Below are positions 9,072 to 52,212 of a stretch of 53,952 nt of DNA, one piece after another. Under the pieces are notes generated by a model that worked only from the letters and a program-made list of their open reading frames with translations, did not search any database and was not told the DNA's origin. Every line of letters starts with the position of its first letter. Position 1 is the first letter of the stretch. The position numbers and the translations under genes are program-made. Origin of the DNA: Clostridia bacterium (GTDB lineage: Bacteria > Bacillota > Clostridia > UBA1381); the NCBI GenBank assembly GCA_017415105.1, contig JAFQJD010000010.1, forward strand, positions 1 to 53,952, written 5' to 3'.

Positions 9072-9074
9072 ATT

Positions 9075-9352: not shown

Positions 9353-9354
9353 TC

Positions 9355-9430: not shown

Positions 9431-9444
9431 ATATCTTAAGTTCC

Positions 9445-9494
9445 TGTGTTCTCAACACAAGCTATATAATACCACAAACATTTGCATTTGTCAA
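9445..9494 (-). promoter_or_regulatory. Promoter and leader hairpin of tRNA-Lys(CTT)
   Basis: On the minus strand TTGACA (9489-9494), 17-base spacer, TATTAT (9466-9471). Between the promoter and the tRNA a small hairpin TGTGTT-GAG-AACACA (9445-9459) lies in the 5' leader; the other tRNA operon in the window also has a leader hairpin. Confidence 0.8.
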
Positions 9495-9561
9495 CACTTT
9501 TTTCAAAATTTTTTTCTTTTGTCGGTTTTATACAATTTCACCTTTTTATGTGCTCGTTTCC

Positions 9562-9590
9562 TTGACAAATGCATAAATATATTGTATTAT
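9562..9590 (+). promoter_or_regulatory. Promoter of the C69 dipeptidase gene
   Basis: TTGACA (9562-9567), 17-base spacer, TATTAT (9585-9590). GAAAGG precedes the ATG at 9623. Confidence 0.8.
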
Positions 9591-9622
9591 TTTAGTATAT
9601 CCCGACGAAAGGTTTTACTTAT

Positions 9623-11164: not shown

Positions 11165-11171
11165 AATTTTA

Positions 11172-11202
11172 TGGGGATATCTATATGATATTCCCATTTT
11201 TT
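11172..11202 (+). terminator. Terminator after the C69 dipeptidase
   Basis: GGGGATATC (11173-11181) pairs with GATATTCCC (11187-11195), one G-T pair, followed by A and six T. Confidence 0.75.
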
Positions 11203-11230
11203 CATATACTAACAAAAAGGAGTTGATAAT

Positions 11231-12265: not shown

Positions 12266-12294
12266 AATTTTCCAATAAAAAACGACAAAAAGAC

Positions 12295-12323
12295 TTGTTT
12301 TTTAACTGAAAATATTTTATAAT
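12295..12323 (+). promoter_or_regulatory. Promoter of the hlyD-like/yggS/sepF/ylmH/divIVA group
   Basis: TTGTTT (12295-12300), 17-base spacer, TATAAT (12318-12323). No clear terminator is seen before divIVA, so one transcript may cover 12368-16072. Confidence 0.65.
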
Positions 12324-12367
12324 ATAATTATATAGGTATACACAGAAGAAACATTGAAAGGTCTAAA

Positions 12368-13561
12368 ATGAAAAAATTCTTTATAGCAGTCATTTCACTT
12401 GTTATATTTACAATGGTTGCATACGGAGTTGCTTATGTTGTTATGCCGGTTAACTCTATAGAGCTTACCCGTTACACACACAGCGTCAGCTTTGTTTGTG
12501 AGAATGCTTATATTGTGCGTGATGAAACTGTTTATTACTCGCCTTCAGACGGTATCGTCTATAACATATCCGAGGACGGAGACAGAGTTGCACAGGATGC
12601 GTCAGTGAGCACCGTTTATAACGGTGATGTGGATCAGACCACGCTCAAGATGCTTCATACCATTGACGCAAAAATAAGCCGTCTTGAAGCAAACGGACAC
12701 AACAGTGATCTGTACAAAACAGATTCCGACTCAACCGAAAACCGTGTTGCAGATAAAATGAGTGAGATTTTTGAATATGCACAACAGAACAACGTCGCGG
12801 AAATTCACGACATCAGGGATGACATCAATAATATCCGTAAAGGTGCCGGGGTTTCTGAAAACACACGTATAGATGTTCTGCGTGCAGAACGTGAAAAAAC
12901 AGAAGGCTCAATCTCTGCAGGAAAAAGGGATATAATTTCTGACAGGTCGGGTATTTTCTCGTCGTATGTCGACGGACTTGAAACAGTGCTTTCCCCTGAC
13001 AAGGCAGAGGAATTTACCCCTGCTTATCTTAATTCACTGCAGCCCGATACAAGCGAATATATAAACGGAAAACAGATTGTTTCAGGCACGCCTGTATGCA
13101 AGGTTATGAATAACCATATCTGGTATATTGCCGGAATTACAGGCAGTGAACGTGCTGAAAAGCTTAAGGAAAACCCGAATGTTACGGTAAGATTTACAAA
13201 CCTTACCGAAAACGATGTGAACGCAGAGATTTCTTATATAAGCGAGCCTGACAGCAAAGGCAATTGCGTATTTTTAGTGAAAGTCGGAACGTATCTTGAG
13301 AGTGCGTTCTCTTACAGAACCGTGGATGCACAGATAATTTTTGAGGAACATTCAGGTTATAAAGTGCCAACCGATGCAATCCGTACCGGTGAGGGCATAA
13401 GCGATTATTTCGTGTATGCAAGACAGGGCTCTGAATCATACAAATGCGATGTGGATGTTCTGTATTCTGACACGGAGGAAGGATATTCAATAATCGCATC
13501 CAAAGAAAAAGCCGATAATAATCTTGGTTCTATGGACAGACTCATTGTCGGTGAACGCTGA
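12368..13561 (+). CDS. HlyD-like membrane-fusion/adaptor protein
   Basis: A 397-residue protein with one N-terminal membrane segment (about residues 5-27) and an external part that resembles HlyD/efflux adaptor proteins: a lipoyl-like half motif (ENAYIVRDETVYYSPSDGIV, 45-65), a charged helical region (about 95-195) and beta-barrel segments (GTPVCKVMNNHIWYIAG near 240, then KVPTDAIRTG near 335). No transporter partner is encoded nearby. In Clostridia this family commonly sits just upstream of yggS-sepF, as here, so a cell-envelope or division-linked role is possible, but that is inference. Confidence 0.75.
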   Translation: MKKFFIAVISLVIFTMVAYGVAYVVMPVNSIELTRYTHSVSFVCENAYIVRDETVYYSPSDGIVYNISEDGDRVAQDASVSTVYNGDVDQTTLKMLHTIDAKISRLEANGHNSDLYKTDSDSTENRVADKMSEIFEYAQQNNVAEIHDIRDDINNIRKGAGVSENTRIDVLRAEREKTEGSISAGKRDIISDRSGIFSSYVDGLETVLSPDKAEEFTPAYLNSLQPDTSEYINGKQIVSGTPVCKVMNNHIWYIAGITGSERAEKLKENPNVTVRFTNLTENDVNAEISYISEPDSKGNCVFLVKVGTYLESAFSYRTVDAQIIFEEHSGYKVPTDAIRTGEGISDYFVYARQGSESYKCDVDVLYSDTEEGYSIIASKEKADNNLGSMDRLIVGER

Positions 13562-13588
13562 TAAATAAAGAAAGGGTGTGGGTTATAA

Positions 13589-14275
13589 GTGAGCCTTGAG
13601 CAAAGACTTAACGATGTAAAACAACGCATCGCAAACGCCGCAGCAGAATGTGGCAGAGTGCCTGAGGAAATAAAGCTTATTGCCGTTACCAAAACCTATC
13701 CCACAGACGCAATGAATGAAGCAATCCGGCTCGGTGTTACCGATGTCGGAGAAAACAAACCGCAGGAGGTCAGGGATAAATTCGGTGACGTTCTACCGAC
13801 GAGATGGCATCTTATAGGACATCTGCAGTCAAATAAAGTTAAATATGTTATTGACCGCTGCTGTATGATACACAGCGTTGATTCAATAAAGCTGATGCAG
13901 GAAATTGACCGTCAGGCATCGGCACACGGTTGTCATATCGACATACTTATCCAGGTTAATATTTCCGGTGAGGAATCAAAGTCAGGCATTACTCCGGAGG
14001 AGTTACCGGAGCTTCTTATGTATGCCCGAAATCTTACCAATACCCACGTTAAAGGGCTTATGACAATCGCTCCCAAATCCGAATACGGTGATGTTTCGGT
14101 GCATTTTGGGAATATGAAAAAGCTGTTTGACAAAACAGCAAAAGAAACATATACGAATGTCAGTATGGATGAACTGTCGATGGGAATGAGCGGTGATTTT
14201 GAAACCGCTATAAAATACGGAGCAACTATGGTCCGTATAGGCAGTCTGATATTCGGGCCAAGAAACTACAATTAA
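13589..14275 (+). CDS. yggS: PLP homeostasis protein, YggS/YlmE family
   Basis: A 228-residue PLP-binding protein with an alanine-racemase-like TIM barrel and no known enzymatic reaction; the family balances pyridoxal phosphate and amino acid pools. The PLP lysine is in LIAVTKTYP (near residue 34). GENKPQE, WHLIGHLQSNK, HSVDS and the phosphate-binding MGMSGDFETAIKYGATMVRIGS end are all present. The start is GTG at 13589 with AAAGGGTGTGGG upstream. It lies directly before sepF, the usual ylmE-sepF order of Gram-positive division clusters. Confidence 0.95.
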   Translation: MSLEQRLNDVKQRIANAAAECGRVPEEIKLIAVTKTYPTDAMNEAIRLGVTDVGENKPQEVRDKFGDVLPTRWHLIGHLQSNKVKYVIDRCCMIHSVDSIKLMQEIDRQASAHGCHIDILIQVNISGEESKSGITPEELPELLMYARNLTNTHVKGLMTIAPKSEYGDVSVHFGNMKKLFDKTAKETYTNVSMDELSMGMSGDFETAIKYGATMVRIGSLIFGPRNYN

Positions 14276-14293
14276 CAGAAGGGAAGTGTATGT

Positions 14294-14860
14294 ATGTCAT
14301 TTTTAGACAATGCAAGACGTGCATTCGGAGCAAAGCCGGATGATTATTACGAGGACGACCGCTACGAGGATGAGGATTACGAGGACTACGAGGAGGAAGA
14401 ACCAAAAAAGTCTTTGTTCTCGTTCCTTTCAAAGCGTACAGATGAGGAGGACTACGAGGAGGAAGAAGAGAGCTACGAAAAAGAGCCTGTCCGTGCACGT
14501 AGATATTCTTCATATTCAAGCTCAAGAACAGCAGAGCCGAGAGAGCGTTACAGTAGTAGCTTTAATCAGAAGCCCGCAACTCCTGCACCTGCAAGAACAA
14601 ATATGTCAGGTGTTGAGGTAACTGTTCATTATCCCGCATCTCTTGATGATGCTACAAGAATAATCCGTGAGGTAAAAAGCAATAAGATAACTATATTTGA
14701 TATCTCGGCTATCACCTCTGATGATGAAGCACGCCGTGTTGTAGACTACATAGGCGGAGCTGCTTTCGGTATGGAATGTCCGTTTGAAAGGCTCTGCCCG
14801 AGCATATTCTGCATAGCACCCGTCGGTGTTAAAATAGACGCAAAGAAGAACAGATATTGA
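14294..14860 (+). CDS. sepF: Cell division protein SepF
   Basis: FtsZ-binding division protein that anchors and aligns FtsZ at the membrane. The short N-terminal helix (MSFLDNARRAFG) fits the membrane-binding amphipathic helix. A long, very acidic Tyr/Glu/Asp-rich linker follows (about 17-100), then the conserved SepF core (about 108-188; VTVHYPASLDDATRII, FDISAI, RVVDYIGGAAFGM). The 188-residue length is somewhat above the Bacillus protein because of the linker. Its TGA stop overlaps the ylmH ATG by one base. Confidence 0.95.
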   Translation: MSFLDNARRAFGAKPDDYYEDDRYEDEDYEDYEEEEPKKSLFSFLSKRTDEEDYEEEEESYEKEPVRARRYSSYSSSRTAEPRERYSSSFNQKPATPAPARTNMSGVEVTVHYPASLDDATRIIREVKSNKITIFDISAITSDDEARRVVDYIGGAAFGMECPFERLCPSIFCIAPVGVKIDAKKNRY

Positions 14861-37455: not shown

Positions 37456-37529
37456 GCGGGTGTAGTTCAATGGTAGAATCCCAGCCTTCCAAGCTGGTCG
37501 TGTGGGTTCGATTCCCATCACCCGCTCCA
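37456..37529 (+). tRNA. tRNA-Gly (anticodon TCC)
   Basis: Complete 74-base cloverleaf. The acceptor pairs GCGGGTG with CACCCGC, the anticodon loop is CTTCCAA, and CCA is encoded. First gene of a five-tRNA operon. Confidence 0.96.
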
Positions 37530-37539
37530 TTATTTTTAT

Positions 37540-37616
37540 GCGACTGTAGCTCAGTTGGATAGAGCAATTGCCTTCTAAGCAATGGGCCAGGGGTTCGAAT
37601 CCCTTCAGTCGCGCCA
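37540..37616 (+). tRNA. tRNA-Arg (anticodon TCT)
   Basis: Complete cloverleaf. The acceptor pairs GCGACTG with CAGTCGC, the anticodon loop is CTTCTAA, and CCA is encoded. It lies 10 bases after tRNA-Gly. Confidence 0.96.
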
Positions 37617-37636
37617 GCCCTATGGGCTAAAAATAT

Positions 37637-37714
37637 GGTGGGTATAGTTCAGTTGGTTAGAGCGTCAGTTTGTGGCACTGAATGTCGTGGGTTCGAGTCC
37701 CACTATCCACCCCA
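37637..37714 (+). tRNA. tRNA-His (anticodon GTG)
   Basis: Complete cloverleaf with anticodon loop TTGTGGC. An extra 5' G at 37637 pairs with the C at 37711, the encoded G-1 identity element of histidine tRNAs. CCA is encoded. Confidence 0.96.
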
Positions 37715-37754
37715 TTTTATTTTTAGCAGGTAAGGACACGCCTGAATTATATCC

Positions 37755-37830
37755 GGGGATATCGCCAAGTCGGTAAGGCAACGGATTTTGATTCCGTCAT
37801 GCGTAGGTTCGAGTCCTGCTATCCCTGCCA
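37755..37830 (+). tRNA. tRNA-Gln (anticodon TTG)
   Basis: Complete cloverleaf. The acceptor pairs GGGGATA with TATCCCT (one G-T pair), the anticodon loop is TTTTGAT, and CCA is encoded. Its last base abuts the first base of tRNA-Lys. Confidence 0.95.
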
Positions 37831-37906
37831 GGGCCATTAGCTCAGTTGGCAGAGCACTTGACTTTTAATCAAGTTGTCCGGAGTTCGAATCTCCGATGGC
37901 TCACCA
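37831..37906 (+). tRNA. tRNA-Lys (anticodon TTT)
   Basis: Complete cloverleaf. The acceptor pairs GGGCCAT with ATGGCTC, the anticodon loop is CTTTTAA, the T arm is CGGAG-TTCGAAT-CTCCG, and CCA is encoded. Last tRNA of the operon and the last clearly chromosomal gene before the phage-like region, so its 3' end is a candidate attachment site. Confidence 0.96.
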
Positions 37907-38266: not shown

Positions 38267-41200
38267 TTAGTCCTTGACAGATTTTTGAGCTTTGCCGTAG
38301 TATTTCTGTTGATACTTTTTATTCAGTACCTTTTTAACCTCTGTGCTTGTTTCCTCTAAAGCTGCTGTGTAATCTGCGGTATTGGAAATGTTGTTGCCCT
38401 GCCAAGTACGATATTTTTCAACCAAGTTTAGATAGTCTTTGATGTAGGCATCGTACTCTTGTGGTGTCATTTGATATTCGCACTTGGTTCTGAGATAGCT
38501 TCCGTCTGAACGCTTTATCCTCTTACCGTTTGAGTTTGTTTCATAGACAGTCCATTCCATTGTGGATTCAGGTAAACTTGTGATAATAACATCATCAGAA
38601 ACCTTTTCACCGTCAAGACGGCTAAGCATATTTGTCTGCGATGCCGTATTGTCATAATCCCAACGATTAAGAGCTTTAAGCAGATAGGCTCTGCCGTTTC
38701 TCTGTTCACTCTCAGGCAGTGCCTTTACAGCTTTATTCATACCTGAAATATAGCTTGTGATTATAGCGTTCTGCTCATACTCTACGGCCGTGTCGATAGT
38801 TCCGGCATACTGAAATGCTTTCTCAGCCTTTTCCTCGTTCTCATACATTCTGTTAAGAACATCAGTAGAATAGTTGCTGTCTGATACAAATTTGTTTCTC
38901 AGACCGATGCTTGTGTCTTTGCGTTCAGGGTTCATCGGGAACAGTGCTTTGTTTACCTGACCGAGAATACCTGTATAAGAGGAAATCAGGTGGTCTATCT
39001 TTTTAGGTGACATATCAATATCCCTTGCAAGCTTTGTCTGACCTAATGCGTAAGCAATCTTTGTAGTGCTGTCTGTGTACCTCTCATTGCTCGGAGTGTA
39101 TTTGTCATACATACCCTCGATAGGTGTTCCCTTGAAGTCCTGATTGAAACCTACATCTACTATACCGCCCAAGATAGTGCTACCCAATACTGAGTGAGCT
39201 GCATTAACAGGGTCGAGTGTGTCCGGGAGCATCGGCGGTAATAACTGCTGTCCTAAATATGTGCCAAAATCATAGAACGCTTCTTCGTTTTCGCTGAGCA
39301 GGTATTCAAGGGTTCTTTCCGTTATTGTATCAAGTAAAGCATTTTCTCTCGGTTTCGGAAGCGATATAAACTTACCATCGCCAAGAGCGTAATTATAAAA
39401 GTTGTTTTTCTTATACGCTGATAGGTTTTTATATCCTTCCTCGTCAACCTCTCTATTGTAGAGATAGCCGAGAATACCCATAATCAAAGCATTAAGCAAC
39501 CACTTTAACAATGTTTTATAACGCTTCTTAATATCTTTGTTTGTGATTGTGCGGAAAGTCTTGTCAAGACCTTGTATTGCAGCATTGTTGAACATTATAA
39601 CCTTGTTGACTGTTTTTGCAGTATCACCGCTACCACTACGCTTAAAGTTTGTGGTAAGGTCACTTGCGTTGAATATAGCTTCCTGCAGGTCACCACCGTT
39701 TGCAAGTGTTCTTTGGAATTCTGCAAATCTCGGTACACTTTCGATTAAGTCATTGAACGATGCAACTGTTTCAACCGGGTGTCTGAATATCGAATATGCC
39801 AACCGTCTTGCTTTTCCCATATCCTTTTGAGATACTTTACGCAAAGTCGATTTAATATTTTCAATATTTGCACTAAGCTCTGAGGAATGACCGCCACCCA
39901 TTGCCTTATACTGTTTATAGCTTTCACCGTTTGCAATAATGGTAGCAAGAGCTTTGACATACTGAGCAGCAAAGGTTACAGGGTTGTTGACCTCTGACAG
40001 CTTATATGCCGTGCCATAATCTCGGATAGCGTTTGTAACAGCAAATATCGGGTTGTTTTGAGTAATCAACAATTTCATAGGTTGCATTACAGAATTCATT
40101 ACTTTTAACAGTCCCGATGTCTGTTGCGGTGACAACTCTGCAACAGATGTGTAAAAAGCGTTGTCGTGTATCTGATAGTATGAGGGAGTACCGCCCTGCA
40201 GAACGGTCACAATCTTTTTGTTTGCATTTGCAATAGGTGTAGAGTCTGTAACCGCATCGCCGAATATTTCATCGAACATATCACTAACAGCGAAATAGTC
40301 CTCTGCATTAAGTTGGTGTTGGAGTGCTTCTGTGAAGCTCTCTTTTTGCTTCGATATATCTGTGAAATGAGGTATCATATCGGGTGATACTTTTTCCATA
40401 AACTGACCGAAGCCGTCCACATTATCAGCGTAGTTCGCCCAAATACGCATAACCTGATTTCTAAGAGCAAACTTAACCATTTTTTCTGTATTTCTGATAA
40501 TACTTTCAGTAGGACTGATTATCATAGCACCGCTGCCCTTAGCTCTCATAATCGGTGAGCGTTGGTTTGCAAAAGTGCCTTTTGCCATTCCTGACCTCTT
40601 GTTTCCGACTGCTCTGTAAAACGGTACATAGGACGGATATTTACGGTTAAGTGTTTCTAATGTTTCTCTTGTCATACCGCCTGCCGGGATAACAAAGTGC
40701 TTTAATACATTGTTCTGATATTCGTATAAATTCTCGGCAGCAGTTTTGATTTCAGGGTGTGTATCCTCAATCTCTGCTATCTGCTTTTTGATTTCATCGA
40801 CATTTTCCAATGTATCATCGGCGAAAACCCTCTTAGCTGTTACATCGTCCTGCTCCGGGGCAATCCATTCTAACGAGTGACGGAGTACAAGGTATCTATC
40901 AAGCAACTTAACATCTTTTGAATCAACCATACCGATACAATCTATAAAGGATTTAGCATCAATCAAGTCACCGCTTAAATTACGGAAACCCTCACAGACT
41001 AAGTAATTTGCAACGGCGTGTGCGTTCAGGGAGTTTGTCGCAAGCACATAGGCGTTACCTTTTCCTGATAATGTTCTGCCGGTTGCATCTTGCACATAGT
41101 CAACAGCTTCTTTCTGTGGGTGGAAACTATCAACCCAATTTGTATAGAATTTTTCCCACTTTTCTCTAAAGGGTACTTTTTCCTTTTTCTGTGAGCTTGT

Positions 41201-44200
41201 TATAGCTGCATCGTATCTCTCAGATATGTTATATGATAAGTATTCATTTACCGCAGAAGCTATTTCATTAACAGCCTTTAAGTCCTCTTTGGAAAGAGCC
41301 TGTATAAACTCTGCATAAAATTCCGGGCAAAGTCTGACTGCTTCATTGGTGTTTTTGAGATAGCTCCTGATAAATTCTGCAACTGATTCTTTATTCTTTG
41401 TGACATCATCATCGTACATATCTAAGTATTCCTGAGATACGGAGTTGCGGAGTATAGCAACGCTTTCCAAACCGTCTAATCCATACTTTTTGCAGAGGTG
41501 GTGTCCTAATTCGTGAGAGATTGTCGGCAGGTTGTTTGCTATTCTCGTCCTGATTGTTTCAGGTTTTGCCTTGTAAATGCCCGAAGCTTCTCGGTCTGTT
41601 ACTTTACCTGTCGCAATAGGAATACCGAATTTTTCACTAATACTGCGTACAATGTCCGCAATATTAACACCTTTGACCTTGTTATCCTCAACACGCTCGG
41701 TCGCCCACCTGTTTTCAAGGACAGTATCTTCAGACAGGTTCAAATCTCTGCTGCTTAATACCTCATCATCAGATGCCGTGTCTGTTTCAGTCGGTTCAGA
41801 CTGTTTCTGTTCGCTATAATGTTCATAACGATAGGTAATATCCTTTTGCTTTTCAAGTGCTGCTGAGAGTTCAGCTTCTTTTTCAAAAGGTTTATTAACC
41901 TCGGTCTTAGCAAACTCTAAGTCCTTTTGGAGCTGTTCAAGGCGTGCCTGCTGTTTGGTCTGCTCAGCAGTCAAGCGATTCAGAACACCTGCAATTCTTG
42001 CTATGTTATTACCGCTTCCGCCTGCATACTCAACATTGTATTCGTTTGCACCCTTTAATACTAAGGTGTAACCGATACCGCCTGTATCACCTTTGAACAT
42101 AATATCAAAGCCGTTGTATTCGCCAAGCTTTGTAAAGTTACCGTTCTTTGGTGCTGATTTCACAGCTTCGCCAAGAGCCTTGTTAGCTTCACCCTGTTTG
42201 TCGAATTTCTTACCCTTGATTATCATTTCAGCTTTTTCGCCGTATTTATCCCTAAGGGCAATATCCTGAGCCAATCTATCAAGGTATGTTGTAAGTCTGC
42301 TTATGATACCGGGGTTTTTAGCGATTGCATCTTGATAGCGATACATTTCGCTTTTATAGTTGCGTTCAAGGGTTTTAAGTCTGATAACCTCTTTGTCAAT
42401 GTCAATCTTCTCTTTTACAAGAGGATTGCCTGAGGTAATCGCCATAGCAGTTGCAGCATCAACACCTGCACCGCTATCCTCGTCTGCTCCTATATCTTCC
42501 ATTTCTGCAACCTGTTCACCTCTTAAAGCACGGCGTATCATTTCGCCTTTACGGTCAACAGCCTGCCATTTATGGCTATCAAAGGTATTTTCCTGTAAGA
42601 ATCTGTATATACGGACCTCAGGATTGATGTTTCCTGCACGAATACCACGAGCGTTGCCCTGTTCCCAATCGGACGGCTTGTATGTAACAGTAGGGTGGTA
42701 TATAGCCACTACACGCTTCTGAACATTCAGACCCTCAGCCATTTTCTGTGATGTGCCGATTAGAACACGAACCTCACCGCTATTTACTTTTTCATAGAGA
42801 GCTTCAAGCTGTGCATCGCTTTGGTCTTTAACTATAACAATCTCGTCTTTCGGTATGCCCTTTTCAATGAGCTTTTTCATTATATCCTTATGCAGATTGA
42901 AAGAATATACCGTACCTGAGCCTGAACCTTTGTCGCAGAATATAATCTGAGTACCCTTGATGTCCTTAGATGCTTTGTATTCATCGAACACAAGACCGCA
43001 CATTGTATTGATTTTACTGTCTGCATAATCAAGCTCGTCTAAGGAGTAGTCCTTAAAAATGTTATGCTCTGATTCTGCACCGCTTAACATTCGCAGGTCA
43101 ACGGCAGCGGCATCAGCCATAGCCATAACCTGACCGTATGTTCTCAGCAATTCTGCTTTCGGTGTCTTAGCAATAATGCTTGAAATTTCTTCCTCGATTT
43201 GTCTGTGTTCTGCAGTGCCGTCAAGCTTAACATCTTTATATACGGCTTTCGGTAGGTTCTTAACAACATCATCAGTAAAGACAATATCAGCGAATTGTCT
43301 GAACATACCAATCATTTCAGATACATTGATAAAGCTACGGATAATCTGTGTTGATTTCGTCTTTATCTTATTGTCTATGCCGATTTCGGTATTTGTTTCA
43401 ATCTTGGCAAAGGTATTTACCCATTCATCAAGAGAGTGTATTCCGGCATCTTCCAAAATGTCAGGACGAACCATACGCATCATATTGTAAATTTCAGAAA
43501 CAGTATTCGTAATAGGTGTACCTGTACCGAATATAATCTTGCCGTCTATGGAACGCATATAGTCTAATTTCATTAGCATATCGTTAGCCATTTGTGCATT
43601 GTTTCTGTTTACAAGACCTTTTATATCGAGCTTTGTCGGTGTCAAAATGCTCTTGTAGTTGTGAGCTTCATCAACACAAATACAGTCGATACCGAGCTTT
43701 TCAAATTCAACACTGTTTTCATCACGAACAGTATCAGAGTTTAAGTCCTTTAGTTTCTGTTCAAGATTATCTCTCTGAGTAATTAAACCCTTTAGCTGTC
43801 GTCTTGATACATCACGGTCATTCTGAGCAAGCGAGATTTGATATTCCAAATCTTCTAACTGCTGATTTGCATAGTTAGCTTGCAGCTCATTACTTACAGG
43901 AATTTTTGTAAATGTGGTTCTTGCGATAAGAACAATATCCCAATCGTTGGAATTTACAAGACCGAGCATAGTCTGTCTTTTCTTATTTGCTGTGTCTATT
44001 ACAAGCACCTTAGCGTTTGGATACGCCTGAGCAATATCACGCTTAAAGTCAACGACCTTATTGTTAGGTACGACCATAGCTGCCTTGTTGATAAGACCCA
44101 TACGCTTTGCTTCCATAACAGAAGCAATCATTTCAAAGGTTTTACCTGTACCAACACCGTGAGCAAATAGAATATTCCCACCGAACAAGAAGCGTGCTAT

Positions 44201-47200
44201 ACCTTTTTTCTGATGCGGATATAACTTTGCTTTCAGAGTGCTGTCCATTGAATCAAAGGAAAGTTTCTCAGCGATATGCTCATAGTCGAGAGGTCTGTAA
44301 TTATTATAGGTTCTATTGTACCTATCAACAATGTCAGCTCGTCTGTCGCTGTCGCTGAATATCCACGATTCAAACTCAGCTTTGATGTCCTCTGCTTTTT
44401 GTCTTGCTATATCGGTCTGCTCAGGGTCAGCAACCGTTATTTGTTTTGTACCGTCAGATATTCTTTTAGTAGCTGTAATCTCGCTATCGTTAAGTATTTT
44501 TTCAAGAAGCTGAATAGCATTAAATGCCTTACAGCCATACTTAACATTGAGTATATCGCCGTATCTTGTTTGTCTTACGCCCTCGATTGACCATCGTCCT
44601 GAGTTATCCTTAGACACCTCAATTCGTGTCTTAAATATATCAGCAACAAAGTCCTGAATATAGGACGGTTCAATGTAGTTTGCACCAAGTTTTACGGTGA
44701 TAGAGGAAGCATCTTTCGGAGTAGGCAATACGGCTTCAAGCATCGCCTGTTGTTCCTTAAATTCAGGTTTACCCTTTACGGCTTCTAATTTCTCATAGAT
44801 ATTACCTGACAGATATATGTCGGTCAAGACATATTCACCCTCAGGAGTGAGTACGATTTCGCCCTTTAATTCCTCTGCAAGCTGTGTTTCGGTTTTTCCG
44901 GTCAGCTCTTTCATTCTCTCAAAATCAATATGTCCGCTTTCGTTAAGAGATACCGCCAACGCATCAGATGCAGCATCAACACTTGTAACTCTCTTTTTCC
45001 TGAGAGTATCTTTTTCAAACAGTGCTGATTTTTCAAATTTGCCGTCTTTTGCATTGTAGTATTCAAGACCACTAACCAAATAATAATCGGCATCAGCTTC
45101 AAGGAAAGTGTTGTTTTTACACTTAGTATTTCCGATTTTCTTTTTGCCGTCACCTGTAATAGCGGTGTGTGCCTTGTAGAATTTGTCGTATGCTTTGGAA
45201 AGAGCATCACGCAGAGGTTTTATATCTTCCTCAGACTTGTCAAGCTCATAAGCATTTAACAGCTCTTTGTACGCATCACGCACGGCCATATAGTCACGGA
45301 CTGTCTGTTCACGGTTTGTTACCTGTGTTGCCGTGCCTGCACCATCATCGGAATATATCTTACCATTCTTTTCAAAGAACCTTGGCTTATCGCTTACCGA
45401 TACAATAGTTTCGATAGGCTTTAATTCCGTTTTGCCGGAGATTAAATCTTTCGGGAGCTTCTTCATAGCGGTTTCAAGTTTGTCATAAAAACTGCCATCA
45501 TCAAGAACGGTTGTAATTTCGCCCCAAGCATTAGTGCCTTTTGAAAGAACGCCCAAAACATTTTCCGGGTGCTTTTCAAAATATTCATTTACACGCAGTC
45601 CGTCTTTGGTTGTAACGACATTTAATATGCTATCGCCACTCGGCTTTTCACCGTTTGCACGCTTGCGGAGTATAAGCAAGTCGGTCTGAACATCTGTGTC
45701 AGCGTTTCGTGAGAACACACCTGCAGGGAGTTTATAACAGCCGATTACATCTGCTTTATCCATTATTGCCTTTCGTGCATCAAGGGTGTAGCTATCAAGC
45801 GTTCCGGCACTTGTTATAACAGCCACCACGCCACCGTCACGGACCTTATCAATAGAGGAAAGTATAAAGTAGTTATGAAGATTGTATTTCTTCTTGTTAT
45901 AGGTCAGTTTGTTTGTGCCAAAGGGAACATTACCAATAACCAAATCATACGAGCCGTTTTTGATTGCAACATCTTGGAACGGTTTGTTGATAACTGTTGC
46001 ACCGGGATATAGGTATTGTGCTATTCTTGCGGTGTACGATTCAAGCTCGACACCTGTCAGAGCTGATTTACTACTTAATGCCTGAGGCATACGACCGAAG
46101 AAATTACCAACACCCATTGAGGTTTCAAGGACATTACCGCCCCTAAATCCCATACGCTTCAATCCGTTATACATTGCATCAATAACCTTTGTCGGAGTAA
46201 AAAAGGCGTTATTCATTGAGCTTTGCATAGCTTTTCTCTGTTCCCAATCAAACAGTCTGCCAAATCTACTGCTAAGCTCATAAGGAATACGGCGTGGGTC
46301 GATACCACCCCAACCCTTATATTTAGCAAGTGTTTTCTTTTCTTCTGCTGTTGCAGGTCTGCCCTCGTCCTCGATTTTCAAAAGAAGCTCAATCGCTTCA
46401 ATGTTATCCTTTGCACTTGGGGCAGTAGTATCAATTTCTGCTGCGACATCATCAGTGATAACGAAATTGCCCTTGTTAGACGGTCTTGGTTTTTCGACTG
46501 TCTTAGCTTCCGTATCAATGATTTCAGATGTGCTGTCTGTTATTTCTGTTTCAGATTTTCCGCTTTCTGCATCAGAGCTTTCTGCATCATTTCTTCCGTG
46601 AATTCTCTCGCTGTCATTTCCGACATCGGGTCGGATTGGTTCTGTTCCATTACCGTCCTGTAATAGCTCTCTGCCATTGTCCCGATACTGTCCGCTATCT
46701 GTTTCTGCTGTTCTTTCGGTAGAGCTTTGAGCTGTGGGGTGTAGTCCGCTATCATCAGTAGTGCTTTTTCCTGCCAATACTTCTGATTTCTGTTCAACAT
46801 CATTTACACCGTCCTTTACCTCTTTTTCTTTTATTATATCACTATCGTCCGATTTTTTCAACATATCTGTATCGGGTGCGGTGCTTTCCTCAGCTACACC
46901 AAAGAAATCGTTGAAAGTTTTAATTACATCTGAATCGGGTTCAGTCTTGAAAATAAAACCGGGGATTGCTTTTCCGTCAGGAGTTTTAGCAAACCTTGAG
47001 TAGTACCCACCAGCTTTTTTAACGATACCGCTTAATGCCTTGTATTCGTCTGATGTGATTTTATCTTTCAAGGAGATTACCCATAATTTTTCACCTGTTT
47101 TGGTGTGGGTGGTTTCGTGCAACTCACATTTATCTGTAAGAGCAGGAGTGCTTTCTGCAGGCTGTTCAACATTTTCAGCCTGAGATGTATTGACAATTTC

Positions 47201-50200
47201 CTTTTCTTGTGGTATATTATTAGTGGGTGATGTTTCCCCAAGCGAGCTGTTATCATTATCAGCTTCAGACTTGGACTTGAAAGAAACATCATCTTTTTTT
47301 ATTATAATGATATTTCCCTCGTTGTCTGATACCTCATGTAGATAGTATCTGTTGTCTGTATCACTCTTTGTTACCACAACGCCAACATAGGCTTTTTGTG
47401 TGCCTATGCGGATTGGAGCTGCAAAAACATAGCTGTCATAATTTCGACCTTTCCAATTTTCTACAAAGTCAATTTGTCGTCCTTTTTCTATTACCGCCGG
47501 AACACTCGCAAATGCAATCGCTTTTGCTCTACCCATTCCGTGAGCAATACTACTGTCAACACCCTTATCGTTTATAGCCACATCGCCGAAATTATCTCTG
47601 TGAACCACACCGCCTAAGCTTTCAAAATATTCATACACCTGTTGCGATAGTTTCTTTTCGCCTACCTCAAATTCATTTCCTGTGGCTTCATACACAACAG
47701 CATCATTCTCTAATAGAGGTATGCTGTCTGTTAGCTTTTTGAACAGGTCATTTTTCTTGGATTTCGATGTTTCCTCTGATACGCTATCAGGGGTATTTTT
47801 TTCGTTTTCGGGTGTTTCTGTTACACTTTCGGGCATTTTTGTTACGCTTTCAGGTGATTCTGTTACACTTTCAGGTGATTCTGTTACGCTTGCAGGTGAT
47901 TCTGTTACGCTTGCAGGCGTTTCAGTAACATTTACAAAATCGTAATCGACTGTATTTCCATTTCCGAAATCCGCAAAGAAACCTGTATCCTTAAAGCTTA
48001 GTCCCTTTAAGTCTAAGGTACTGATACTGCCGTCAGGCTTTTTGGTTTTAAGGCTCTTTGTGCTGACTGATTCAACAGTCCTTTCCTCAGACATACCATT
48101 ACCGAAAGTAACCTTGACCGCTTTTCCGATATGTGACTTTAAGTAATCAATACAGTCAGCCTTATTTGTAAACGGTACTTTGCCGTCTGTGATTTCTGCA
48201 GGGACAATCTCTTTTACATATTCTTTGCTGTTATGAATACGCTTCAAATCGTCAGTGTATGCCTTAAATTCATCAGTTGTATTCATATAGTAACTGCCGT
48301 TTACTGTTTTATACTTAACATCGTTAAAAGGAATGTTCTCATTTACATACACGGCAAATTGTTCTGCTTCCTGCTTATCATCAAAAGAGAAAGTAGTCAT
48401 ACCTGACGAAAGTAAAACAACACTATATTTACCGTCTTTATTCTTATTCACGCCGTATTTACCAACGATACGACCTGTTTTTGTTTCGTTCTTGTTAAAC
48501 TTTGCACCGATAATTACCTTAAAGCTACCGTTACGCAGACTATTATTTGTGTAATCAATCTCTTTTTGGTTAAATCGAATTACGCCGTTTTCATCAACAC
48601 GAAGCGTACCGTTTGTATCGCTCAACACCTTGTCAGCATCTATCTGAGGTGTGGCAATATCCTTAGATGCCAAAACCTCACTATCTGCGGACAGCTTTTC
48701 CATTTTATCATCGGTCAACATTCTCTTGAAGAAAGCAACATCAGGGTTTACGATTGTCTTTTCCCCATTAGTAAAGGTCATTTCCACCTTATAATCAGAG
48801 CCGTTTTTCTCTATGACCTTATATACTGTTTTTGTGATAGGGTCAATATACGCATCGCCCACAGCAACAGCATCAGGTGTGTTATCTTCGACAATATCAG
48901 AAGAAGAAACAGGAGCTTTTTCAATCTGTTCAAACTGAGCATTGGTAAGCAATGTGTCAGCCTGAGCATTTGTGTATGTTCTCTGTTCTTGCTTTTTACC
49001 TGTATCTATCTGCACAACAGGATTATTTTCATCACGGCTCAGAATGGTGAGAACATTACCATTTGATTTCGCTTTGAATTTATCGCCCACAACAACCTCA
49101 GATGCAGGTACATCATTTGTTGCGACTGTTTCTGTATTGGTTGGTGTTTCAATAGGTGCAGGAGCTTCATTTTTGACCTGCTGAGCCACTTCATCAACTA
49201 CCTTAGCAACATCTGCAGTAGAGGGTGTTTCGTTGTTTTCAAGGGCGGTTTCAACCCTCTCAGCAGCTTTCACAACATCGGGGGACTTGCTTTCCTTTGC
49301 AGTTTCAACAACCTCGTCAAGATTATTCGTTGTCAAAGGTTGAGTTTCCTGAGGTTTACCCTGTGTGGTCTGTCCTGTTTTTGGTGTGTTTTCCTGTGTA
49401 CTGCTTTCAGCTACAATTTTTGCTTTACGCTTTGCTGCGGTTTCGACTGCTGTATCTAACATACGATTTACGCCTGTTTTTACAACATCGCCACCCGTAC
49501 CTAACAAACCGAAAGAAAGAGCAGAGGAAGCAGCCGTTTCACCAAGTCGTCTTGCTACCTCGCTTGCATCGTAAGCGAATTTGCCTTTTTCGATTTTGTT
49601 TGCAGCCTGAACACCGATAATTGTTGATGCTTCCTGACCAACTTCTTGTGCAGTTTCAGTCGCAATGTTGATACCTCTGTCTTTCATATAAGACAGTATT
49701 TTTTTAGCGACAGGTTTAGTCGCATTGGTTTTATTCAAAATCTTAAACGATTTTATTAAATCGTCAGCCTGTACCATTTCAAGAGCTGCATTTGCACCGC
49801 CGACACCCAATGCGATTTTTGATGCAAGGCTTGGCGAAATGCCGTTCTCAATCATTTCTTCATAGGCATTACCTGCTTCTATTTCAAAGTTAGCGGTTGC
49901 ACTACCTGCTGCCATACCTGTAAGAAAAGCACCGGGGACTGTAACTATTTCTTCGGGAGCTGCTATCTGCGGACCTGCTTGACCTGCAATAGCAACTGTA
50001 CCTGCTGCTGCTGTACCTGCTGCAATAGAACGAGGGTCAGTCCATTGTTTAACCTGCTGACCTAACAGCTCTGATGCACCTGATATAGCTTTCTCAAACC
50101 AATTATCAGGAACGAAACTGTAATCTTCGCTATCAAGCATTTGCTTGTAATAGTCTTTATTATTTTTCTGCCCGGTCATAGCTTTGTATGCTTCCTGACC

Positions 50201-50563
50201 GTATAAACTCTGTATCCAACCTTTCTTAAAGCTGTTTACAGTATTATCCCAAAAGCTTGCACTTCTCGGTGTGTTTTCCTCAATATCTTTTTTGAGTTGC
50301 TCAAAAGAGGAAGAAAGTCCCTGATATTCCACATACTTATCTAAAACTTTTCTTTCTTCATCGTCTGCAGGTGTATAGCTATCGAGGGCGTTCCCCTCGA
50401 TAGCTCTTTTTGCACCATAGCTTATGTTTCCAATAAGCGTGTCATTATCCGTTTTGAGTTCAAATTTTTGGTCACGCAGACTTTGCACATTAAAACCGCT
50501 TGATTTTGGGGTTGTGCTGCTCTCGTTATTTTCCTTGTATAAACTTTTAACATTGAAACCCAT
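38267..50563 (-). CDS. Giant polyvalent phage protein: methyltransferase-helicase with peptidase and LPD38-like domains
   Basis: One 4098-residue frame. In order: a twice-repeated GFNV(K/Q)SL near the start; Gly/Ala-rich hydrophobic segments (about 175-360); Pro/Glu-rich linkers; a seven-residue repeat (878-917); a region like BECR-type nuclease domains of phage proteins (951-1094; VVYEATGNEF, SSIAHGMGRAKA); a small domain common in methylase-helicases (1145-1221); an N6-adenine methyltransferase (about 1380-1660, motif I LETSMGVGNFFG, motif IV NVPFG at 1545); an SF2 helicase (GVGTGKT at 2136, DEAH at 2298, GTSQKMAEGLNV near 2610); HELGHH at 3017, a zinc-peptidase motif; and a C-terminal LPD38-like region (about 3480-3700; NPIFAVTNAIRD) with a membrane-like helix near 3690. 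It follows the 544-residue gene by 14 bases. By analogy with DarB and other polyvalent proteins it is probably packaged in the virion and injected to protect phage DNA from restriction. Confidence 0.88.
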   Translation of the reverse strand: MGFNVKSLYKENNESSTTPKSSGFNVQSLRDQKFELKTDNDTLIGNISYGAKRAIEGNALDSYTPADDEERKVLDKYVEYQGLSSSFEQLKKDIEENTPRSASFWDNTVNSFKKGWIQSLYGQEAYKAMTGQKNNKDYYKQMLDSEDYSFVPDNWFEKAISGASELLGQQVKQWTDPRSIAAGTAAAGTVAIAGQAGPQIAAPEEIVTVPGAFLTGMAAGSATANFEIEAGNAYEEMIENGISPSLASKIALGVGGANAALEMVQADDLIKSFKILNKTNATKPVAKKILSYMKDRGINIATETAQEVGQEASTIIGVQAANKIEKGKFAYDASEVARRLGETAASSALSFGLLGTGGDVVKTGVNRMLDTAVETAAKRKAKIVAESSTQENTPKTGQTTQGKPQETQPLTTNNLDEVVETAKESKSPDVVKAAERVETALENNETPSTADVAKVVDEVAQQVKNEAPAPIETPTNTETVATNDVPASEVVVGDKFKAKSNGNVLTILSRDENNPVVQIDTGKKQEQRTYTNAQADTLLTNAQFEQIEKAPVSSSDIVEDNTPDAVAVGDAYIDPITKTVYKVIEKNGSDYKVEMTFTNGEKTIVNPDVAFFKRMLTDDKMEKLSADSEVLASKDIATPQIDADKVLSDTNGTLRVDENGVIRFNQKEIDYTNNSLRNGSFKVIIGAKFNKNETKTGRIVGKYGVNKNKDGKYSVVLLSSGMTTFSFDDKQEAEQFAVYVNENIPFNDVKYKTVNGSYYMNTTDEFKAYTDDLKRIHNSKEYVKEIVPAEITDGKVPFTNKADCIDYLKSHIGKAVKVTFGNGMSEERTVESVSTKSLKTKKPDGSISTLDLKGLSFKDTGFFADFGNGNTVDYDFVNVTETPASVTESPASVTESPESVTESPESVTKMPESVTETPENEKNTPDSVSEETSKSKKNDLFKKLTDSIPLLENDAVVYEATGNEFEVGEKKLSQQVYEYFESLGGVVHRDNFGDVAINDKGVDSSIAHGMGRAKAIAFASVPAVIEKGRQIDFVENWKGRNYDSYVFAAPIRIGTQKAYVGVVVTKSDTDNRYYLHEVSDNEGNIIIIKKDDVSFKSKSEADNDNSSLGETSPTNNIPQEKEIVNTSQAENVEQPAESTPALTDKCELHETTHTKTGEKLWVISLKDKITSDEYKALSGIVKKAGGYYSRFAKTPDGKAIPGFIFKTEPDSDVIKTFNDFFGVAEESTAPDTDMLKKSDDSDIIKEKEVKDGVNDVEQKSEVLAGKSTTDDSGLHPTAQSSTERTAETDSGQYRDNGRELLQDGNGTEPIRPDVGNDSERIHGRNDAESSDAESGKSETEITDSTSEIIDTEAKTVEKPRPSNKGNFVITDDVAAEIDTTAPSAKDNIEAIELLLKIEDEGRPATAEEKKTLAKYKGWGGIDPRRIPYELSSRFGRLFDWEQRKAMQSSMNNAFFTPTKVIDAMYNGLKRMGFRGGNVLETSMGVGNFFGRMPQALSSKSALTGVELESYTARIAQYLYPGATVINKPFQDVAIKNGSYDLVIGNVPFGTNKLTYNKKKYNLHNYFILSSIDKVRDGGVVAVITSAGTLDSYTLDARKAIMDKADVIGCYKLPAGVFSRNADTDVQTDLLILRKRANGEKPSGDSILNVVTTKDGLRVNEYFEKHPENVLGVLSKGTNAWGEITTVLDDGSFYDKLETAMKKLPKDLISGKTELKPIETIVSVSDKPRFFEKNGKIYSDDGAGTATQVTNREQTVRDYMAVRDAYKELLNAYELDKSEEDIKPLRDALSKAYDKFYKAHTAITGDGKKKIGNTKCKNNTFLEADADYYLVSGLEYYNAKDGKFEKSALFEKDTLRKKRVTSVDAASDALAVSLNESGHIDFERMKELTGKTETQLAEELKGEIVLTPEGEYVLTDIYLSGNIYEKLEAVKGKPEFKEQQAMLEAVLPTPKDASSITVKLGANYIEPSYIQDFVADIFKTRIEVSKDNSGRWSIEGVRQTRYGDILNVKYGCKAFNAIQLLEKILNDSEITATKRISDGTKQITVADPEQTDIARQKAEDIKAEFESWIFSDSDRRADIVDRYNRTYNNYRPLDYEHIAEKLSFDSMDSTLKAKLYPHQKKGIARFLFGGNILFAHGVGTGKTFEMIASVMEAKRMGLINKAAMVVPNNKVVDFKRDIAQAYPNAKVLVIDTANKKRQTMLGLVNSNDWDIVLIARTTFTKIPVSNELQANYANQQLEDLEYQISLAQNDRDVSRRQLKGLITQRDNLEQKLKDLNSDTVRDENSVEFEKLGIDCICVDEAHNYKSILTPTKLDIKGLVNRNNAQMANDMLMKLDYMRSIDGKIIFGTGTPITNTVSEIYNMMRMVRPDILEDAGIHSLDEWVNTFAKIETNTEIGIDNKIKTKSTQIIRSFINVSEMIGMFRQFADIVFTDDVVKNLPKAVYKDVKLDGTAEHRQIEEEISSIIAKTPKAELLRTYGQVMAMADAAAVDLRMLSGAESEHNIFKDYSLDELDYADSKINTMCGLVFDEYKASKDIKGTQIIFCDKGSGSGTVYSFNLHKDIMKKLIEKGIPKDEIVIVKDQSDAQLEALYEKVNSGEVRVLIGTSQKMAEGLNVQKRVVAIYHPTVTYKPSDWEQGNARGIRAGNINPEVRIYRFLQENTFDSHKWQAVDRKGEMIRRALRGEQVAEMEDIGADEDSGAGVDAATAMAITSGNPLVKEKIDIDKEVIRLKTLERNYKSEMYRYQDAIAKNPGIISRLTTYLDRLAQDIALRDKYGEKAEMIIKGKKFDKQGEANKALGEAVKSAPKNGNFTKLGEYNGFDIMFKGDTGGIGYTLVLKGANEYNVEYAGGSGNNIARIAGVLNRLTAEQTKQQARLEQLQKDLEFAKTEVNKPFEKEAELSAALEKQKDITYRYEHYSEQKQSEPTETDTASDDEVLSSRDLNLSEDTVLENRWATERVEDNKVKGVNIADIVRSISEKFGIPIATGKVTDREASGIYKAKPETIRTRIANNLPTISHELGHHLCKKYGLDGLESVAILRNSVSQEYLDMYDDDVTKNKESVAEFIRSYLKNTNEAVRLCPEFYAEFIQALSKEDLKAVNEIASAVNEYLSYNISERYDAAITSSQKKEKVPFREKWEKFYTNWVDSFHPQKEAVDYVQDATGRTLSGKGNAYVLATNSLNAHAVANYLVCEGFRNLSGDLIDAKSFIDCIGMVDSKDVKLLDRYLVLRHSLEWIAPEQDDVTAKRVFADDTLENVDEIKKQIAEIEDTHPEIKTAAENLYEYQNNVLKHFVIPAGGMTRETLETLNRKYPSYVPFYRAVGNKRSGMAKGTFANQRSPIMRAKGSGAMIISPTESIIRNTEKMVKFALRNQVMRIWANYADNVDGFGQFMEKVSPDMIPHFTDISKQKESFTEALQHQLNAEDYFAVSDMFDEIFGDAVTDSTPIANANKKIVTVLQGGTPSYYQIHDNAFYTSVAELSPQQTSGLLKVMNSVMQPMKLLITQNNPIFAVTNAIRDYGTAYKLSEVNNPVTFAAQYVKALATIIANGESYKQYKAMGGGHSSELSANIENIKSTLRKVSQKDMGKARRLAYSIFRHPVETVASFNDLIESVPRFAEFQRTLANGGDLQEAIFNASDLTTNFKRSGSGDTAKTVNKVIMFNNAAIQGLDKTFRTITNKDIKKRYKTLLKWLLNALIMGILGYLYNREVDEEGYKNLSAYKKNNFYNYALGDGKFISLPKPRENALLDTITERTLEYLLSENEEAFYDFGTYLGQQLLPPMLPDTLDPVNAAHSVLGSTILGGIVDVGFNQDFKGTPIEGMYDKYTPSNERYTDSTTKIAYALGQTKLARDIDMSPKKIDHLISSYTGILGQVNKALFPMNPERKDTSIGLRNKFVSDSNYSTDVLNRMYENEEKAEKAFQYAGTIDTAVEYEQNAIITSYISGMNKAVKALPESEQRNGRAYLLKALNRWDYDNTASQTNMLSRLDGEKVSDDVIITSLPESTMEWTVYETNSNGKRIKRSDGSYLRTKCEYQMTPQEYDAYIKDYLNLVEKYRTWQGNNISNTADYTAALEETSTEVKKVLNKKYQQKYYGKAQKSVKD
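46540..46803 (-). CDS. Possible overlapping small gene inside the giant gene
   Basis: An 87-codon frame, shifted by one from the giant gene, with AAAGGACGG placed 5 bases before tandem ATGs. The product reads like a normal helical protein (RNQKYWQEKALLMIADYTPQL, continuing into LKALPKEQQKQIADSIG, then AESYYRTVMEQNQSDPMSEM), with few odd residues. The giant protein's own reading here (about residues 1254-1341) is a Ser/Asp/Glu/Thr-rich linker of low complexity. So the alternative frame may be the older or functional coding sequence, either expressed separately or left from an inserted gene whose frame was overprinted. I do not recognise the family. Confidence 0.4.
   Translation of the reverse strand: MMLNRNQKYWQEKALLMIADYTPQLKALPKEQQKQIADSIGTMAESYYRTVMEQNQSDPMSEMTAREFTEEMMQKALMQKAENLKQK
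47813..47930 (-). repeat. 21-base tandem repeat in the giant gene
   Basis: About five to six copies of a 21-base unit (GATTCTGTTACGCTTGCAGG-like on the plus strand) encode repeats of the seven residues SVTESPE/SVTESPA in a flexible linker of the giant protein. Copy number is likely to vary between related phages. Confidence 0.8.
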
Positions 50564-50577
50564 ATCGGTTCACGCTC

Positions 50578-52212
50578 CTATTCTGAATTCTTCATACCTT
50601 TACCTTTGTTAAACCAAGTACGATTGGTGTATTTATCTACCCAAGACGAATCAAGACCGAGTTTATTACAGATGTCTTTTGCTTCTTCAACATCTATATC
50701 GTACTTAGTGCTGTTGGAATTTGTAACATCACTACCGCAAATCAACTGTTCAAGCACTTCCTCGTTGATTTCTCGTCCTTGGTCATAGTACGGTTTTAAC
50801 TGCTCATTCAGGAATTTTACGACTTTTTCATCAGGGAAATATCCGATAAAGTTCGTCCATTCCTGAGAAGCACCGCTGTCTGTTGTACCGCCATCTGCCC
50901 AAGACGGCGTATCAGATGTCGTGTCTTTGGGTTTAACACCGTTTTCAACTTGGTGGGTTATAATATCCTTTTCACCCTGTGTCTGTGCCTGAATCTGTGC
51001 AATCTTATTCGCATTGTTTGCACTATTCATAGATACATCAGCGTTAAGCTGTCTATCGGCAGCGGCAATCTGTTCATCAAACTGTCTTGCATCTTCGGTT
51101 TTCTGTGGCTGAATATAAGCAACATCGCCACTATTGAGGTACTTACCATATTCAGCAAAGTTACCAAAGATTTTAAGACCTCTCAGAATTGCATATTTAT
51201 TTGCAAGCTCAGTATTACCGCTTGCCTTTGCATTATTGATAAGCTCTTGGAAATCGGTATCGTAGTATTCAGCCTTTAACTTGCCGTCTGAATCAACAAA
51301 GTTTTTGAGGAAAGCATCATTCTGAATACTCCACTGAGTAGGCGTGATACCTGAAACGGAAGCCTGCTCACTAAGACGAGCTGTTTCGTTATTCTTTGCA
51401 GTTTCGTCCTCGTTGAATACTCTGTCAATATTAACTCCCATGTCAGAGAGTAAACCCCTTGCGTGGTCTAATTTCTGCTGATGTGCATCAAGCACTACCT
51501 GCTGTCCTTTATTAACAAGTGCCGATTGCTGTCTTAAAGCGTTTGCAGCAGCAAAACTGTCTATGTTACCGCCGTTGCTACCGCCAACCTTTGCGACCTC
51601 ATTATCTCTGCCCTGCAGACCTGCAAGGTCATACTTAGCAAGGATAGCCTTTGCCGTTTCCGTTTCAAAAGGATTTGTATTTTTTAAGTCCTCATATTCC
51701 TGATTGTATTTTGCAAACAGGCTTTCGTTCTCTTGGTCAACGGCCGTACTTTTAGAACGGACTGTACCGCTTCTGCCTATGTAATCATTAAAGGCGTTAT
51801 CGAGTACCGATGTGTCAGACCAATAGGAAACACCGTCCACAATAGTATCGGGTGTGCCGATTTTCTTACCACCAAAGGAAACCTCGCCTGTTTGACCGTC
51901 CCAACCTATCAATTTATCAACATCACTCTGCGACATCCCTTTTGATTGTCCCAAAGAGTACAGATAATCTCGTGTTGAGGTTTTACCCATTTTCGCCCAT
52001 TTATCACGAATTGCTTTCGCCTGCGTGTAGTTTGAAGCGTTGAGTTCATCGGCTATATTGCCGTAGCCATTTCGTCTAAGCTGATTGTAAAAAGCCTGAG
52101 CTTTCTTTGCAGCTTCATTCTTTTTTGTTTCATCGCCTGCGTTATTTGCACTATCCCATTGTCCTTTGAGATTGTATATCGCATTTACCGCATCGTATGG
52201 ACTGTACGCCAT
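50578..52212 (-). CDS. Helical phage protein of unknown function (likely virion-associated)
   Basis: A 544-residue protein I cannot assign. It is rich in Ala, Asn, Gln, Asp and charged residues and looks mostly helical, with heptad-like stretches (about 185-285 and 375-425). No signal peptide, membrane segment, enzymatic motif or cysteine cluster is evident. The N-terminal 90 residues (YDAVNAIYNLKGQWDSANNAG and on) look like tape-measure or internal virion sequence in composition. It lies 20 bases after the NlpC/P60 gene and 14 bases before the giant gene, so a role in the same virion or ejection complex is a reasonable inference. Confidence 0.7.
   Translation of the reverse strand: MAYSPYDAVNAIYNLKGQWDSANNAGDETKKNEAAKKAQAFYNQLRRNGYGNIADELNASNYTQAKAIRDKWAKMGKTSTRDYLYSLGQSKGMSQSDVDKLIGWDGQTGEVSFGGKKIGTPDTIVDGVSYWSDTSVLDNAFNDYIGRSGTVRSKSTAVDQENESLFAKYNQEYEDLKNTNPFETETAKAILAKYDLAGLQGRDNEVAKVGGSNGGNIDSFAAANALRQQSALVNKGQQVVLDAHQQKLDHARGLLSDMGVNIDRVFNEDETAKNNETARLSEQASVSGITPTQWSIQNDAFLKNFVDSDGKLKAEYYDTDFQELINNAKASGNTELANKYAILRGLKIFGNFAEYGKYLNSGDVAYIQPQKTEDARQFDEQIAAADRQLNADVSMNSANNANKIAQIQAQTQGEKDIITHQVENGVKPKDTTSDTPSWADGGTTDSGASQEWTNFIGYFPDEKVVKFLNEQLKPYYDQGREINEEVLEQLICGSDVTNSNSTKYDIDVEEAKDICNKLGLDSSWVDKYTNRTWFNKGKGMKNSE

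Follow-up and report, generated by a model that had tools for sequence, protein, structure and literature searches.

What would a phage gain from encoding, in one protein of 4,098 residues, a methyltransferase, a helicase, a nuclease-like region and a peptidase motif? The question is raised by a gene (P0001) at positions 38267..50563, on the minus strand, of the window, a 53,952-nucleotide contig (JAFQJD010000010.1) from the Clostridia bacterium assembly GCA_017415105.1. The encoded giant is a DarB-like polyvalent protein, judged by its sequence, and thereby a further member of a class that has already been described. The reading that is favored here with good, though not full, confidence is that the giant is made late by a temperate, probably short-tailed phage, is packed into the particle and injected, and protects the incoming DNA.

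Domain anatomy and intactness of the giant

The frame of 4,098 codons runs uninterrupted from the ATG at 50563 to its sole stop, at the end at 38267, as the sequence-only reading had described, while the plus strand across 38267-50563 is full of stops. On the 5' side of the ATG is a GGAG that overlaps the preceding gene's stop codon. The methyltransferase, SF2 helicase, HELGHH motif and LPD38 that had been placed in this one chain are confirmed by Pfam and by motif positions. LPD3 (residues 969-1074, expect value (E) 2.6e-10) and LPD38 (3709-3875, 1.4e-30) score above the curated cut-offs, and further matches are to Eco57I methylase (1527-1607, 2.9e-6) and SNF2 (2130-2456, 9.2e-11). The motifs FTPT (1455), NVPFG (1545), GTGKT (2138), DEAH (2298), GTGTPI (2346) and HELGHH (3017) are all present, and the top profile is PHROG 10089, "DarB-like antirestriction", with 1,129.5 bits. 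The chain combines several biochemically unrelated domains (LPD3, methylase, SNF2, LPD38 and the HEXXH domain), as polyvalent proteins do, and its adenine methyltransferase is fused to an SNF2-type SF2 helicase, as in DarB. Pfam, PHROG and the intact catalytic motifs agree with the polyvalent phage protein of DarB type that had been proposed. LPD36, looked for before the methyltransferase, had no Pfam match in the giant, no dedicated LPD36 profile being run.

From its N-terminus, the giant begins with a proposed injection part (residues 1-784, 48212..50563), delimited by similarity to the related locus L046. Within it lies a Gly/Ala-rich stretch (residues 178-270, 49754..50032), recognized by composition and hydrophobicity: glycine plus alanine reach 35% in residues 170-270 against 14% overall, and the best 21-residue hydrophobicity mean is a moderate 1.14. 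The LPD3 domain (47342..47659) follows. This is the region that had been called BECR-like; the region is present and is probably a BECR-fold nuclease, its identity being Pfam LPD3, and the related locus L002 carries the nuclease PBECR3 in the corresponding stretch. The N6-adenine methyltransferase domain (approximately residues 1340-1700, 45464..46546; motif IV NVPFG at 1545-1549) precedes the SNF2/SF2 helicase (approximately residues 2100-2930, 41774..44266), in which motifs I, II, III, V and VI are present. A zincin-like domain (approximately residues 2960-3140, 41144..41686; HELGHH at 3017-3022, Glu in VAEF at 3063) and a mostly helical C-terminal part (residues 3140-4098, 38270..41146) that contains LPD38 (38939..39439) form together a constant module.

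Compared with the giant of the closest phage, G001, the synonymous divergence (dS) is 0.303 and the nonsynonymous divergence (dN) 0.0197 over 2,898 codons. The resulting dN/dS of about 0.065 argues that the gene is not decayed, and selection on the methyltransferase-helicase is also strong. Taken at sequence level, the gene is working, at least until recently. The domain-by-domain search that had been suggested as a check thus returned separate matches to LPD domains, adenine methylase and SNF2 and no loss of catalytic motifs. Decay of the methyltransferase was considered for its motif IV, NVPFG instead of NPPY, and rejected, NVPFG being typical of the family.

Exchange of modules and the late-gene cassette

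The giants of the window and G001 are 95% identical over residues 1128-4098. Upstream of this region, a block comprising the last ~176 residues of the preceding gene and the first ~1,142 residues of the giant (47138..51106, minus strand) has been exchanged: it has no blastn match in G001 except for ~80 bases in a repeat linker, while the flanking DNA is 93% and 78% identical. The block edge at 47137 is sharp, the 50-base identity between window and G001 rising from 32% to 90%, and the two proteins resemble each other there only in residues 33-97 (38%) and in the linker. In 50-residue steps, the preceding 544-residue protein is 72-94% identical to its G001 counterpart up to residue 350, and from there on 24-52% (window:51107-52638). 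This joint exchange was observed in the single pair of window and G001. It fits the expectation for a preceding protein whose end interacts with the N-terminal part of the giant, the two being held in one block.

Other pairs exchange other parts. L046 resembles the giant over residues 31-97 (43%), 100-784 (40%) and 2917-4095 (48%), and its middle has no match; L002 and L034 share a nuclease stretch that is 71% identical, against 39.6% for their C-terminal modules. LPD3 has no Pfam match in G001. Inside the exchanged block, a tandem 21-bp repeat (47775..47917, minus strand) encodes a linker of the ESVTE(T/S)P type, and similar linkers occur in G001 and L002, making flexible, repetitive linkers plausible exchange points. 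The pattern suggests a giant built of three separately exchangeable parts, and assigns them candidate roles: packaging to the C-terminal part, cargo to the middle, and membrane passage to the N-terminal part together with the preceding gene.

A late-gene context is evident on both sides of the comparison, with genes for an NlpC/P60 hydrolase and a holin in the window and for the large terminase (TerL), portal, major head protein and tail protein in G001. The cassette of NlpC/P60 hydrolase, a protein of ~550-740 residues and the giant is also found in G001 and L034. The proposal that the giant is a one-protein entry and counter-defense system is not supported, given this recurring late cassette and the report that P1 DarB is aided by other Dar proteins (PMC9024508).

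The C-terminal module and the N4 virion RNA polymerase

In the virion RNA polymerase (vRNAP) of phage N4, gp50, an N-terminal membrane part and the polymerase are followed by a C-terminal domain that includes an HExxH subdomain and a large, helical one, the latter reported to be without structural relatives (PMC12633501). According to another paper, injection is the task of the N-terminal part, and encapsidation needs the C-terminal part (PMC9569702). The N4 authors further propose an interaction between the gp51 C-terminus and the gp50 N-terminus (PMC12633501).

For comparison, 13 schitovirus C-terminal domains (one from N4 and 12 of 30 hits listed) were aligned and matched with hhalign to A4, a 20-row alignment of the module. 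The first run gave a probability of 21.6% (E 0.001, score 45.2, 91 columns), majority columns gave 53.6% (E 1.3e-4, score 51.5), and the addition of JC1, BA3 and Palmer gave 55.5% (E 1.2e-4, score 52.2). The highest control scores were 26.8 (60 column shuffles), 28.4 (150 column shuffles), 33.3 (100 block-reversed versions), 22.2 (one reversal) and 34.6 (six comparisons with unrelated profiles). The aligned segment, residues 3596-3694 (39482..39778, minus strand) just before LPD38, corresponds to the end of the N4 domain (about 3359-3460). Of two further weak matches, the collinear one (rank 3, E 0.047) pairs HELGHH with HELVH and AEF with NEF; the other (rank 2, E 0.031) is not collinear. A single N4 sequence in place of the profile gave E 0.25. 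Sequence searches for solved relatives of the module returned nothing significant (best E 0.37), and a fold search did not list N4 vRNAP, but left chains of more than 3,000 residues unaligned. Separately, an alignment of the giant's N-terminus with the N4 N-terminal domain (probability 9.8%, E 0.0032, 75 columns) was uncontrolled and not used.

By these profile comparisons, homology of the module to the N4 vRNAP C-terminal domain is likely but unproved. It opens a wider view, tentative and met with slightly more doubt than belief, in which the DarB-like giants of short-tailed phages and the N4-type vRNAPs would form one family of ejected proteins. Each would have an N-terminal injection part that can be exchanged and fits the C-terminus of the ejection protein encoded before it, an exchangeable enzyme cargo and a conserved C-terminal encapsidation module (zincin plus ~950 helical residues with LPD38). 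Should the link to N4 be real, a family and a testable role would be gained for the large C-terminal subdomain of N4 vRNAP. No earlier statement of a link between N4 and LPD38 was found in the literature searched, which covered few subscription journals and no figures.

Proposed working and rival explanations

The anatomy of the sequence, its intact motifs, its late-gene context, purifying selection and module exchange are directly evident; what we infer beyond them is packaging, methylation, the action of nuclease and peptidase, the order in which things are injected and the type of tail. By analogy with the parts of N4 vRNAP, the giant would follow a plan of injection part, cargo and encapsidation part, and would probably be packed in the particle and injected with the DNA against restriction enzymes. 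It would be produced alongside the NlpC/P60 hydrolase and the 544-residue protein as the lytic cycle ends, and packed into the capsid most likely via the C-terminal module of zincin, helical part and LPD38. At infection it would leave through the tail, with or ahead of the DNA, the wall being opened by the NlpC/P60 hydrolase and membrane passage being aided by the Gly/Ala-rich N-terminal part and the 544-residue protein. All five giants checked have moderately hydrophobic stretches in their N-terminal parts (best 21-residue means 1.14-1.56), which would fit a membrane-active part, none in the window protein being a strong transmembrane segment. In the cell, the SNF2 motor would travel along the entering DNA, which the adenine methyltransferase would mark or shield from type I-like restriction; the LPD3 part may serve as a nuclease, and the zincin may cleave the giant itself or a host protein.

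Several points weigh against the N4 link and parts of the proposed plan. The N4 profile match is short; plain profile search (hmmsearch) placed gp50 at the same site but not above reversed decoys; and of four half-against-half comparisons, one failed and three were weak (E 0.085, 0.018 and 0.0022). Adjoining gene ends would also be swapped together without any interaction. Nor does L046 support the idea that the end of the upstream protein varies together with the N-terminus of the giant: its N-terminal part is 40% identical, but its upstream protein only 20-34% in the final ~145 residues. P1 DarB, which gave no match to the C-terminal module, carries its capsid signal for packaging at the N-terminus (PMC9024508); the giant's signal could therefore also be N-terminal. 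Most of the related loci discussed next were fetched with a C-terminal query, and the constancy of the module is therefore partly built into the sample.

Among 32 related loci, several of them contig fragments (L022 was omitted as a repeat of L004), the last ~1,150 residues are matched at least in part by all, and the methyltransferase-helicase is carried by six (L002, L004, L033, L044, L048 and L053). The HExxH column of this set was excluded from counts, as spurious weak domains shift the module start in some rows. Such figures would suit a protein that is chiefly for ejection, a pilot protein whose C-terminal module and N-terminal part form a DNA entry channel and whose antirestriction domains are optional cargo. 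Short forms of 1,332-1,413 residues in phage contigs point in the same direction, as do the tentative N4 link and gp20 of Bacillus phage Palmer, which is positioned after an NlpC/P60-SLT gene. Pagevirus Palmer is short-tailed. The strong selection on the methyltransferase-helicase does not fit optional cargo, however; the sampling effect named above applies here too; and P1 DarB is believed to be injected even though it lacks a module match (PMC9024508). This explanation is possible, although it falls clearly short of an even chance.

The zincin-like domain suggests another alternative. HEXXH and a downstream Glu are invariant in A4 (H93, E94, H97 and E139 in all 20 rows), and a fold search gave a supportive match for the region, with a structure model of middling quality. 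The giant might be a multi-warhead effector whose peptidase cuts its own chain at flexible linkers after entry, leaving the N-terminal part, the LPD3 nuclease and the methyltransferase-helicase to work separately. The repeat linker lies between such parts, and release of this kind was proposed for the class by Iyer et al., who in 2017 described polyvalent proteins, zincin processing and LPD38 (PMC5512222). However, the N4 vRNAP also has an HExxH, yet its authors report "no evidence of degradation" in their cryo-electron microscopy sample (PMC12633501), and Palmer gp20 matches most of the C-terminal module but has no HExxH. The multi-warhead effector is a rather unlikely account of the giant. 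A decaying prophage relic is very improbable: the contig ends inside the prophage and the G001 portal and TerL proteins had no match in the window's own genome (a search without positive control), but the 12.3-kb frame is open, the catalytic motifs are kept and dN/dS is low.

Genomic setting

The window is one entire contig of a 1.8-Mb genome in 40 contigs. From the contig end, the visible prophage genes run leftwards: an endolysin-like fragment, the holin (P0004, 52958..53254), the virion-type NlpC/P60 peptidoglycan hydrolase (P0003, 52233..52961), the 544-residue protein (P0002, 50578..52212) and, last, the giant, all four complete genes on the minus strand. The NlpC/P60 gene had been described as lying beside the giant; the two are not adjacent, as the 544-residue gene (50578-52212) stands between them. 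The latter is the positional counterpart of N4 gp51 and JC1 gp68. No homology was found between its product and N4 gp51 or JC1 gp64, gp67 and gp68, used as single target sequences, with a profile that does detect the L036 gene (probability 97.6%).

Past the giant's stop lie five transfer RNA genes (Gly, Arg, His, Gln and Lys, 37456-37906), followed by chromosomal genes including those for an aminotransferase, ruvC and argininosuccinate synthase. The five genes adjoin the prophage end and are a possible integration site. In a search for a common attachment site beside the giant in the window, L002 and L034, no 12-mer was shared.

Relatives and variation of the cargo

With residues 1340-2960 as query, 112 phage records were found, all below 60% identity, along with one Ruminococcus metagenome-assembled genome locus (71%), one distant locus (29%) and one IMG/VR phage (97%, in a type of scan that detects close relatives only). 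Matches occur in 8 of 16 genomes of the genus, the window's own among the 8. Residues 2960-4098 matched none of the 15 other genus members; as a query they found 10 of 70 family genomes, again counting the window's own, and 44 phage records, and a profile query found 19 IMG/VR loci. In L085 and L086, from the same genus, the whole giant matches the stretch taken only between residues 1364 and 2905. These DarB-like genes (L085:6459-9139; L086, reverse complement, about 5447-7957) are interrupted near helicase motif VI by insertions with a ~600-residue open reading frame (ORF) that looks to the eye like a reverse transcriptase, and in both of them Rfam recognizes parts of a group II intron.

A domain scan of 20 single proteins (window and L002 included) found LPD38 in 19, ResIII in 5, Eco57I and SNF2 in 4 each, PBECR3 and Helicase_C in 2 each, and ddrB-ParB, phage lysozyme, Strawberry notch helicase (two models), MutS_I, LPD3 and ADH_zinc_N in 1 each. 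The cargo of L034 comprises PBECR3, MutS_I and Strawberry notch helicase, and other loci carry an ART domain (L036), PBECR3 (L035), MuF_C (L037) or ART in a separate frame (L033). In L033 (reverse complement 5183-14472), the related giant is split over two frames of 583 residues (ART) and 2,507 residues (SNF2 helicase, LPD38), by sequencing error or decay. In L041 (7341-10151), a 304-residue protein with MTGNSNA repeats is followed by a 936-residue protein in which a stretch like giant residues 972-1140 is linked to a short piece of the C-terminal module. G001 contains a region resembling a diversity-generating retroelement (L021:12573-14132), with a variable repeat ending a 404-residue tail gene, a template repeat and an ORF resembling reverse transcriptase by eye; the template has A at 21 of 23 differences.

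Comparison with known systems

To the known systems, the window adds a well-conserved virion-type anti-restriction giant with a close relative for comparison, from a host that is probably Ruminococcus-like, judged solely by the named relative L002. N4 gp50 is a giant protein that is ejected; the likeness lies in the tentative profile match at the C-terminal end and in gene order and sizes, the N4 set of 150, 644 and 3,500 residues being described as ejection proteins (PMC12633501). N4 gp50 differs in that its cargo is an RNA polymerase, and in a single-sequence search it did not rise above decoys. Compared by description only, two further systems resemble the giant. The predicted podovirus prophages phi1 and phi4 of Clostridium clostridioforme LM41 have 8-kb ORFs at their 3' end that are shorter than the giant and show LPD3 similarity (PMC11318856). 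Acetonema longum WP_004096050.1 is a Firmicute prophage protein with SNF2 ATPase, adenine methyltransferase and zincin (PMC5512222), but also with GGDEF and ART.

P1 DarB shares the NVPFG methyltransferase and the helicase (22-32% identity in three pieces) and has been shown to give DNA protection in cis from type I restriction (PMC5512222), other Dar proteins helping its entry into the head (PMC9024508). It differs from the giant by its length of 2,255 residues and, besides the missing module match, by the absence of HExxH. Gp69 of the Burkholderia podophage JC1, one of the Bcep22-like phages, has 4,515 residues with SLT, methylase, helicase, LPD3 and LPD38, and its methyltransferase-helicase is 29% identical to that of the giant. 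It is preceded by virion proteins of 196 and 510 residues, comparable to the giant's upstream genes and to the N4 set, and was detected in virions by mass spectrometry (PMC9144972). Apart from the Burkholderia host, the two differ in the position of LPD3, which follows the helicase in gp69 and precedes the methylase in the giant, and in the wall-degrading enzyme, a lytic transglycosylase within the same chain in JC1 and a separately encoded NlpC/P60 hydrolase here.
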